Positions 10,098 to 12,862 of a stretch of DNA of 33,590 nt are shown in pieces; the first letter of the stretch is position 1; every line of letters starts with the position of its first letter. The position numbers and the translations under genes were made by a program. Source of the stretch: Ilumatobacteraceae bacterium. GTDB lineage: Bacteria > Actinomycetota > Acidimicrobiia > Acidimicrobiales > Ilumatobacteraceae. The stretch covers positions 1-33,590 of the forward strand of contig JANWKM010000057.1 in the NCBI GenBank assembly GCA_025451395.1, read 5' to 3'. The notes under the pieces are model-generated. The model saw only the letters and a program-made list of their open reading frames with translations. It was not told where the DNA came from and searched no databases.

Positions 10098-10724
10098 ATG
10101 ATGTTGGTATGGATGGATCTCGAGATGACCGGGCTCGACCCTGCTCGCGATGTGATCGTTGAAATCGCCACCATCATCACCGACGACGAGTTGAACGTGA
10201 TTGCCGAAGGCCCCGACCTTGTCATTCATCGGTCGGACGAGGCATTGGCTGGGATGGATCCGGTCGTCGTCGAGATGCACACCAAGAGCGGACTGCTCGA
10301 TGCCATTCGCGCTTCAACCGTATCGCTCACCGACGCGGGCGAGCAGACCCTGGCTTTCATCAAAGCCCACGTTTCCGACACGACCAAGGTGCCGCTGTGC
10401 GGTAACTCCATTGGGATGGATCGCCGATTTCTGGCCGCTTACCTTCCCGAAATCGAGAACTTCCTGCACTATCGCAGCGTCGATGTCAGCAGTGTCAAGG
10501 AGCTGGTGCGCCGCTGGTACCCGAACCTGGGCAACGGCCATAGCAAGAAGACCGGATCGCATCGGGCGCTCGATGACATCCGCGAGAGCATTGCCGAGCT
10601 TCGGTATTATCGGGAGCGAGTGTTCTTACCAGCAGTAAATGAGTTGACGGCAGGCCAAGAACCTGGTTTCCTTGGCCAGATCACATCCACCGACCGACCC
10701 AGCCAATCCCCAAGACCTAACTAA
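10098..10724 (+). CDS. orn: Oligoribonuclease (DEDDh 3'-5' exoribonuclease)
   Basis: MMLVWMDLEMTGLDPARDVIVEIATIITDDELNVIAEGPDLVIH; CGNSIGMDRRFL; HRALDDIRESIAELRYYR. Start 10098 or 10101. Confidence 0.95.
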   Translation: MMLVWMDLEMTGLDPARDVIVEIATIITDDELNVIAEGPDLVIHRSDEALAGMDPVVVEMHTKSGLLDAIRASTVSLTDAGEQTLAFIKAHVSDTTKVPLCGNSIGMDRRFLAAYLPEIENFLHYRSVDVSSVKELVRRWYPNLGNGHSKKTGSHRALDDIRESIAELRYYRERVFLPAVNELTAGQEPGFLGQITSTDRPSQSPRPN

Positions 10725-10737
10725 GGGAAAAAGACCG

Positions 10738-10896
10738 ATGAAGCAGCTCACCGCCGCACCGCAGAAGCCCCCCGTGGCATACGCGCGCGCCTGCGATGCG
10801 GTTGCCATGGGCATTGAGGATTTTGCTGGCGCGACAGGTGGCTCGAAGACCGCCACCAATCTCACCACCCGACGCCTCGGGACGCGACCGACGTAA
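10738..10896 (+). CDS. Small ORF (52 aa), candidate leader/uORF of the downstream WhiB7-like gene
   Basis: ATG after AAGGGAAAAAGACCG; MKQLTAAPQKPPVAYARACDAVAMGIEDFAGATGGSKTATNLTTRRLGTRPT*. No recognised domain. Confidence 0.6.
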   Translation: MKQLTAAPQKPPVAYARACDAVAMGIEDFAGATGGSKTATNLTTRRLGTRPT

Positions 10897-10928
10897 ATAC
10901 GTCGCAAGCAGCCTCCGAGGCCGTCGGG
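10868..10928 (+). promoter_or_regulatory. Candidate antiterminator competing with the 10919-10960 terminator
   Basis: CCCGACGCCTCGG (10868-10880) pairs with CCGAGGCCGTCGGG (10915-10928): 13 bp with one bulged C (10921), sequestering most of the terminator 5' arm. Confidence 0.7.
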
Positions 10929-10960
10929 ATCGCAAGATCCCGGCGGCCTTTCTGGTTTTT
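10919..10960 (+). terminator. Rho-independent terminator between the uORF and the WhiB7-like gene
   Basis: 13-bp stem GGCCGTCGGGATC / GATCCCGGCGGCC (one G-U), GCAA tetraloop, then TTTCTGGTTTTT. Confidence 0.9.
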
Positions 10961-10996
10961 CAGTATCCGTAAGTGCACAAGAAATGGAATCAGGTC

Positions 10997-11371
10997 ATGT
11001 ACACCCTGAACCCCGAAAACCTGAATGACAGAGACATCCAGACCACCTTCGATGAGCTCGTCGAGCCGATGGTTGTTCGCGTCGCGCGCCCGCGCTGCTC
11101 GGACGGTCACGGCACCCTCACCCACCTGTTCTTCTCCGAGAACCACGTGGACACTGCTCGCGCCAAGGCGATCTGCAGCAAGTGCAAGCTCGCTGAGGAT
11201 TGCCTGGCGGGTGCGGTCGAGCGCGCCGAGCCGTGGGGTGTGTGGGGTGGCGAGCTGATCGAGAACGGCCGCGTTGTCGCCAGCAAGCGTCCCCGCGGTC
11301 GCCCACCGAAGCACCCGCGGCCGACGGTGGTCATCGACGAGGTCCCCATCCCCCCGCATCTCGTCGCGTGA
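10997..11371 (+). CDS. whiB7: WhiB-family Fe-S regulator, WhiB7-like with C-terminal AT-hook
   Basis: Four Cys (RCSDG, ICSKC, EDC); AEPWGVWGGELIENGRVVASKRPRGRPPKHPRP matches the WhiB7 tail as recalled. In-frame GTG at 10973 is an alternative start. Confidence 0.8.
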   Translation: MYTLNPENLNDRDIQTTFDELVEPMVVRVARPRCSDGHGTLTHLFFSENHVDTARAKAICSKCKLAEDCLAGAVERAEPWGVWGGELIENGRVVASKRPRGRPPKHPRPTVVIDEVPIPPHLVA

Positions 11372-11380
11372 GAGGAAACT

Positions 11381-11408
11381 CCGGGTAGGCGTTAACGCGC
11401 CTACCCGG
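11381..11408. terminator. Hairpin after the WhiB7-like gene, probable terminator without a U-tract
   Basis: Perfect 11-bp inverted repeat CCGGGTAGGCG-TTAACG-CGCCTACCCGG just after the stop codon. Confidence 0.65.
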
Positions 11409-11450
11409 GGTCGCCTGGGCGGTCGCGAGTGTCACAGCTAGCGTGTCGTC

Positions 11451-12026
11451 GTGAAGGCGACCACGCGACTCCGAGTGTGGACGATGGTCGCAGCAGCCTT
11501 CATCGCTGTCGTCGTCGGCTGGGCCATCTCCCGTACAAATCAATCCAACGACGACACAGTCATCCTCGACACACGCGTGACGATCGACCCGCCTGGCATC
11601 GGAACGAACGCTGCTATCGAAGGTGACATGCTTCCCGACGCCACCGTTCAAACGTTGCAGGGCGACGACGTTGCCGTCGCGTCGCTCATAGGGGACCCGA
11701 TGGTGATCAACGTGTGGGGCAGCACCTGCGGGCCATGCAAAAAGGAACTTCCCGCGTTCGCCGGCGTTCATCTGCAGTATGGGGACACGGTGCGATTCGT
11801 TGGAATCGACTACTTGCCTGCCAGCGACCGTGAGGAAGCCTTCGCCCGCGACCGTGGCGTGCAATACGAGTTGTACTACGACGGCAACGGCGAGTTCGTC
11901 AACAACGTCGGTGTCGCCGCCTTTCCGGTCACGCTGTTCGTCGACTCGAGCGGCAGGATCGTGCGGCAGACGGGCCAGCTCGATGAAGCGGAACTTATCG
12001 ACTTCATCGAGAGCGACCTGCTGTGA
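11451..12026 (+). CDS. TlpA/ResA-like membrane-anchored thioredoxin
   Basis: N-terminal TM; VINVWGSTCGPCKKELPAFA (CGPC active site); FPVTLFVDSSGRIV. Confidence 0.88.
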   Translation: MKATTRLRVWTMVAAAFIAVVVGWAISRTNQSNDDTVILDTRVTIDPPGIGTNAAIEGDMLPDATVQTLQGDDVAVASLIGDPMVINVWGSTCGPCKKELPAFAGVHLQYGDTVRFVGIDYLPASDREEAFARDRGVQYELYYDGNGEFVNNVGVAAFPVTLFVDSSGRIVRQTGQLDEAELIDFIESDLL

Positions 12027-12862
12027 ATCTCTCGCTCAGTTTCATTCGTGGCTTGATCGCCTCCATCAACCCCTGCGGTTTCGTGCTGCTGCCGACCTAC
12101 CTGATGTATTTCCTCGGGATCAGCGCCAACGACCCACAAGCACAGCGGGCGCCAATCAGCCGCGCGCTCATCGTCGGCGCGACCGTCTCGGCGGGGTTCT
12201 TCGCCGTCTTCTTTGCTATCGGCGCGGCGACGCAGTACTGGACCTACACGCTGCTCGACAACGCGAAGTACGCGACGCTTGTCATCGGCTTGCTGTTCGT
12301 GGTGCTCGGCATCGCGATCCTGTTCGGCTTCAAACTGCCGATCGCGACACCAAGGATCGATATCGGCGAGCGCGATCAGACCTTTCGGACCATGTTTCTG
12401 TATGGCATTGCCTACGCCGTTGCGTCAATCGGTTGCACGTTGCCGTTGTTCATCGCAACGCTGTTTCAAACGGGCGAGAGTAAGGGCTACTGGGCGGGAG
12501 TGAGCAACGTCCTTGCCTATGCGGCCGGGATGGCGCTGGTCGTCTTGTCGCTCACGCTTGCGCTCGCCACGGCCAATCAGGGATTCGTGCGGTGGTTGCG
12601 ATCCAAGATGCAGTACGTCGAGATGGTCTCCGGCGCGTTCGTGTTCCTATCCGGGCTGTATCTGCTGTGGTACTTCTGGAAACGCGATGTTCGGGCGGAC
12701 GATGACCCGATCATCGACGCCGTCGAAAACATGCAGCAGGACGTGCAGGCCTGGCTGAACGACCACTGGCAACTCGCCGCGTGGGTGCTGGGCGGGGTGG
12801 TCGCAATCGGTGTGATGTATGCGCTGCTGCGAGAGCGCCCCAGCCAACGGCCCGCCGAATGA
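12023..12862 (+). CDS. ccdA: CcdA-type cytochrome c biogenesis / thiol-disulfide transporter protein
   Basis: Polytopic; GLIASINPCGFVLLPTYLMYFLG and YAVASIGCTLPLFIA; GTGA overlap with the tlpA-like gene. Confidence 0.87.
   Translation: MNLSLSFIRGLIASINPCGFVLLPTYLMYFLGISANDPQAQRAPISRALIVGATVSAGFFAVFFAIGAATQYWTYTLLDNAKYATLVIGLLFVVLGIAILFGFKLPIATPRIDIGERDQTFRTMFLYGIAYAVASIGCTLPLFIATLFQTGESKGYWAGVSNVLAYAAGMALVVLSLTLALATANQGFVRWLRSKMQYVEMVSGAFVFLSGLYLLWYFWKRDVRADDDPIIDAVENMQQDVQAWLNDHWQLAAWVLGGVVAIGVMYALLRERPSQRPAE

Follow-up and report, generated by a model that had tools for sequence, protein, structure and literature searches.

Actinobacterial whiB7 genes typically carry a leader with an upstream open reading frame (uORF) and an attenuating terminator; when translation stalls, an antiterminator is built from overlapping uORF and terminator sequence (PMC10727445), and other reports concur on the attenuation of whiB7 by its uORF (PMC11550727, PMC4128351). 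These whiB7/wblC attenuators have been described in Mycobacterium and Streptomyces (PMC10727445, PMC11550727), and the mechanism is known from experiments in both genera, as reported by papers that cite Burian & Thompson (2018) and Lee, Lee & Roe (2022). Related devices are found in front of the ARE-ABCF genes vmlR, vgaA, lmrC and are5sc, where stalling on a uORF also turns a terminator into an antiterminator; in contrast with whiB7, these attenuators control resistance genes directly, have very short uORFs and are specific for a drug class (PMC12421871). In amino-acid biosynthetic attenuators such as that of ilvB1 in M. tuberculosis, the position of the ribosome likewise picks between antiterminator and terminator, but the uORF contains a regulatory codon run (PMC13236596), and none is evident in the Acidimicrobiales leader presented here. 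The kind of switch is already known; its order-wide presence in the Acidimicrobiales was not found in the literature searched, in which no paper on such a leader in the Acidimicrobiia turned up.

The leader lies in a window of 33,590 nt, i.e., the whole stretch of DNA analysed, which corresponds to contig C57 in the draft genome of an Ilumatobacteraceae bacterium (1.8 Mb in size and 63% complete). As a preliminary description had proposed, it is with high probability a ribosome-mediated transcription attenuator of the whiB7/wblC type, an assignment supported by the identity of the WhiB7 gene, a coding uORF, mutually exclusive helices and their covariation. That description took such control to be known from mycobacteria, which is correct, and placed the new leader outside that group, which underestimates the range of the mechanism, since it has been shown in Streptomyces too and is typical of actinobacterial whiB7 (PMC10727445). 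The locus shares with the Mycobacterium and Streptomyces systems (Dinan 2014, PMC4128351) an orthologous regulator, a putative promoter 5' of a uORF predicted to be translated, a uORF antiterminator strand that overlaps a Rho-independent terminator, and a candidate WhiB7-type box ahead of the -35 element; it differs from them in the primary sequences of the uORF and the helices and in its order orn-leader-whiB7-tlpA-ccdA, in which tlpA encodes a TlpA/ResA-like thioredoxin and ccdA a CcdA-like membrane protein, all on the + strand.

The product of the gene at 11009-11371 (+ strand; 120 residues) has a WhiB domain (Pfam Whib, 1.5e-12), four cysteines, a GVWGGE turn and a C-terminal AT-hook, RPRGRPPK, with the RGRP core (CSDG..CSKCKLAEDC..GVWGGE..KRPRGRPPK). 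Its best match in a PDB search is WhiB7 (2.2e-18; WhiB3, 4e-6), and in a tree it groups with WhiB7 of Actinomycetes (support 100/98), away from the other WhiB proteins of the genome; by these comparisons the gene, earlier called WhiB7-like, is identified as a WhiB7 orthologue. Its closest named relatives come from genomes assembled from metagenomes, under the labels Acidimicrobiaceae, Ilumatobacteraceae and Acidimicrobiales, and a source in this order is accordingly most likely. The start had been placed at GTG 10973, but this codon is not conserved and was ruled out because the nearest relative, L007, has lost one nucleotide and has it out of frame; the relatives begin at an ATG aligned with 11009 (M-Y-T/A-L). 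Because the start is ATG 11009, the terminator tail is separated from whiB7 by 48 nt and not by the 12-36 nt given before. Past the AT-hook (11297-11371), most Acidimicrobiales WhiB7 proteins have a conserved C-terminal tail (DEVPIPPHLVA), and no such tail was seen in the WhiB7s of mycobacterial and streptomycete type with which they were compared.

The uORF (10738-10896, + strand) is present as first described, with 52 codons (MKQLTAAPQKPPVAYARACDAVAMGIEDFAGATGGSKTATNLTTRRLGTRPT*) running from ATG 10738 to TAA 10894-10896 behind an AAGGG Shine-Dalgarno sequence at 10723-10727. Its coding character was supported by a pN/pS of 0.53 in frame, the two remaining frames giving 1.08 and 0.97, calculated from 77 close pairs of related uORFs that are not independent and from which the last 15 codons were excluded; changes at the three codon positions numbered 349, 406 and 516. 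These values indicate moderate, frame-specific purifying selection on the peptide. As selection is moderate, the pairs are not independent of one another and uORF peptides vary in length, no specific arrest peptide is evident, which is a point against attenuation; no arrest motif was visible. The uORF is predicted to be translated and, as in the whiB7/wblC attenuators, lies between whiB7 and a promoter-like site (10635-10672, + strand), made up of GTAAAT-GAG-TTGACG (10635-10649), 17 nt and TTTCCT (10667-10672). In most Acidimicrobiales leaders RTAAATNNGTTGAC(G)-N17-TTKCCT is conserved in an unchanged position, also written RTAAAT-N3-TTGACG-N17-TTKCCT, and the exact 15-mer box pattern occurs once in the window (0.09 occurrences expected allowing 2 mismatches). 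The WblC site is GAAAWY, 3 nt ahead of the -35 (PMC7157823); the RTAAAT-N3-TTGAC box resembles it, with one mismatch in the window, and is a candidate WhiB7 site. A sigma-70 consensus scan of the window called no promoter here, and conservation was used instead; the -10 (TTTCCT) matches the sigma-70 consensus poorly, which is a point against attenuation. A transcription start downstream of 10960, named earlier as evidence that would overturn the proposal, is without support in the sequence because the conserved promoter-like site lies ahead of the uORF. A regulon of WhiB7-box promoters elsewhere was also considered and set aside: the exact pattern is too strict, since in the four genomes G000, G003, G014 and G004 it either occurs once, at the whiB7 locus, or is absent.

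The strong intrinsic terminator of the preliminary description was found at 10917-10960 (+ strand), with a 15-bp stem (10917-10931/10936-10950), a GCAA loop and a U-rich tail to 10960; it folds alone with -35.8 kcal/mol (z -5.9), and its interrupted U-tract (TTTCTGGTTTTT) is a further point against attenuation. As in the whiB7/wblC attenuators, it overlaps an antiterminator whose other strand is in the uORF. The 5' strand of this helix (CCCGACGCCTCGG, 10868-10880, + strand) occupies the last uORF codons at a fixed distance to the stop codon, and pairs through 13 bp with one bulged C, as had been claimed, or 14 bp counting G10881-U10914, with a 3' strand (10915-10928, + strand) that overlaps the terminator 5' arm (CCGAGGCCGTCGGG). 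The predicted fold changes with transcript length from antiterminator to terminator: for an RNA ending at 10930, which has no terminator 3' arm, the minimum-energy fold is the antiterminator (-36.5 kcal/mol, z -5.6), and for the full-length RNA it is the terminator fold (-53.1 kcal/mol, z -6.3). Sequence comparison shows the two helices to be mutually exclusive. In a model, the antiterminator is lost when a ribosome covers 10864-10886, and the terminator still forms. Judged from one sequence alone the complementarity is suggestive: the duplex energy of the final 60 uORF nucleotides with the terminator 5' arm was matched in 11/5000 shuffles and 24/5000 synonymous recodings, i.e., a single-sequence chance of about 1 in 200-450 (0.2-0.5%). 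The antiterminator was accepted because conservation and covariation settle what one sequence leaves suggestive. A search of Rfam gave no family at gathering score in the whole window, and with the limit relaxed to E<=5 no meaningful match in 10500-11050.

Covariation was evaluated in an alignment (A1) of 31 distinct Acidimicrobiales leaders, reduced from the collected loci, in which the antiterminator strand holds a near-fixed spacing to the stop codon despite differences in uORF length. The covariation that had been predicted is present, so that this ground for rejecting the proposal falls away, and the antiterminator covaries far above controls: it has 84.9% of its cells paired and changes on both sides at 6 of 13 pairs, while the terminator has 97.7% of cells paired and a score of 0.175 versus 0.125. 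A third covarying helix, absent from the preliminary description, is a predicted hairpin that includes the stop codon of the uORF (10889-10904, + strand; CGACGU-AAAU-ACGUCG), with UAA 10894-10896 in the stem end and loop; 87.1% of its cells are paired and five of its six pairs change on both sides, so that its arms read CGACGU/ACGUCG in the window, ACACGU/ACGUGU in L052 and AAAUGU/ACAUUU in L081. Taken together, antiterminator and stop hairpin have 85.6% of cells paired versus 74.5% after shuffling and 29-42% in slid controls, 11 pairs with changes on both sides (67 such cells versus 18.5 shuffled), and a covariation score of 0.335 versus 0.151, reached in 0/500 shuffles. These counts are conservative because the inner half of the helix is, by eye, displaced in its pairing register in the L066-L088 group, which lowers them. 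At column 83, common to both helices, the terminator has 13 U-G wobbles and the antiterminator keeps 15 A-U and 15 G-C pairs, a Watson-Crick retention which argues that the antiterminator itself is under selection.

The stop-codon hairpin and its neighbouring pairs make the antiterminator more stable by about 12 kcal/mol (-36.5, versus -23.9 for P1 by itself), and a modelled 26-nt ribosome block on the stop codon abolishes the hairpin, weakens the antiterminator to -24.4 and keeps the terminator. For comparison, two sets of Actinomycetes leaders were used, 18 from genomes of 5-12 Mb, taken as Streptomycetaceae, and 26 taken as Mycobacteriaceae, both family names being inferred from WhiB7 sequence and genome size. 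A hairpin at or beside the stop codon is found in 22/31 Acidimicrobiales, 18/18 Streptomycetaceae-type and 21/26 Mycobacteriaceae-type leaders (shuffle rates 0.32, 0.45 and 0.37), and in the last set it often ends just 5' of the stop without containing it. In the streptomycete-type set the base after the stop varies with its partner (TGAT..ATCA, TGAC..GTCA), and as this base lies outside any codon, the paired change points to selection on the RNA. The hairpin was not found in the whiB7/wblC literature searched, and as a structural detail it may be new. We offer only tentatively the idea of a functional hairpin conserved across the phylum, which a ribosome paused at the stop would melt, hindering closure of the antiterminator, such that the switch would sense termination and release besides stalling in elongation. 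Being well defined and simple to mutate, the hairpin is amenable to work in model actinobacteria.

It is very probable that stalled ribosomes switch whiB7 on through the leader. Transcription would begin at the promoter just 5' of the uORF, probably boosted by WhiB7 itself. When the uORF is translated freely, ribosomes would cover 10868-10880, and the stop hairpin as well when they stand on the stop codon, while the polymerase makes the terminator, which would prevail and leave whiB7 off. When translation of the uORF is stalled or absent, 10868-10880 would pair with 10915-10928, enclosing the stop-codon hairpin and consuming the terminator 5' arm, and the polymerase would continue into whiB7. 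Translation inhibitors or amino-acid starvation would be the signal for this switching in cells. It is unlikely that the same RNA responds mainly to a charged tRNA, of alanine or another amino acid, instead of ribosome-binding drugs; the uORFs are Ala-rich (17.3% versus 10.2% in neighbouring proteins) and amino-acid starvation also induces whiB7/wblC (PMC11550727), but the uORFs of the marine group are without this enrichment (8.9%), no conserved codon run was found in the uORFs, and any stalling should act.

The distribution of the leader was followed with a covariance model (R1) built from it, with which 61 relatives were scored, a match being counted if it lay on the strand of the gene and no more than 700 nt 5' of it. 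R1 matches directly 5' of WhiB7 in 52 of the 53 genomes of the order that have the gene (the exception is G026), and 10 other matches in the relatives all have E values of 1e-3 or worse. In its own genome the model matches once (3e-33); the next best (0.1) and worse matches are not 5' of WhiB7 and were taken as chance, as were most matches of a scan of the phylum, which fall off WhiB7 genes. Additional WhiB7-like copies without the leader occur in G021 (L030), G025 (L096), G032 (L093) and G036; in G032 and G025 the second copy adjoins the leader-bearing one, and the second copies L030, L096 and L093 are possibly differently controlled paralogues. Leaders with the same parts in the same layout are present in both Actinomycetes families, and at least eight pairs between the uORF end and the terminator 5' arm form in 31/31, 18/18 and 25/26 leaders of the three sets, in folds without the 3' arm (shuffle rate 0.55-0.60). 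The preliminary description considered the leader an independent or ancestral version; its independence is unsupported, and since two Actinomycetes families have the same layout, a leader ancestral to Acidimicrobiales and Actinomycetes appears more likely. That the attenuator arose separately in the Acidimicrobiales is improbable: the leader sequences are unlike each other, no R1 match lies 5' of whiB7 in the large-genome family taken as Streptomycetaceae (f51), and the gene neighbourhood is unlike that of Ornithinimicrobium (L089), but the parts have an identical order around an orthologous gene, each of the three groups has hairpins at the stop codon or next to it, and outside the order weak R1 matches occur just 5' of WhiB7-like genes (G076, 3.6e-6; G229, 0.002; G070, 8.6e-4). 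The leader widens the known reach of WhiB7 control by ribosome sensing, from two groups of Actinomycetes that have been studied well to an order whose members are known mostly by metagenomes, and this speaks for an old circuit in the phylum, not one peculiar to pathogens or producers of antibiotics. With the alignment of 31 leaders and the covariance model there is a search tool missing from Rfam.

Upstream of the leader lies orn, an oligoribonuclease gene (equivalog match), which is also found there in the L066-L088 group. It is very improbable that the hairpin is a plain terminator of orn, with a chance uORF and a whiB7 promoter 3' of 10960, since, although orn ends at 10724, 13 nt ahead of the uORF, is upstream throughout the genus and the hairpin makes a good terminator, the promoter-like site is conserved 5' of the uORF, antiterminator and stop hairpin covary, the uORF is under frame-specific selection, just 48 nt remain between tail and ATG, and the leader is present without an upstream orn match in, e.g., L024, L027 and L052. 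In this genome orn is about 30 codons longer than in the relatives and runs across the whiB7 promoter-like site (10630-10724); L009 and other relatives end orn within the box (GCA TAA AT), and the same TAA is out of frame here. In the region 10098-12862, the order whiB7-tlpA-ccdA downstream of the leader, with its thiol-disulfide genes, is retained in nearly all the Acidimicrobiales loci examined, and readthrough past the leader could link WhiB7 to thiol redox genes. A strong perfect hairpin at 11381-11408, CCGGGTAGGCG-TTAACG-CGCCTACCCGG, separates whiB7 from tlpA, and it is called terminator-like on the - strand only.
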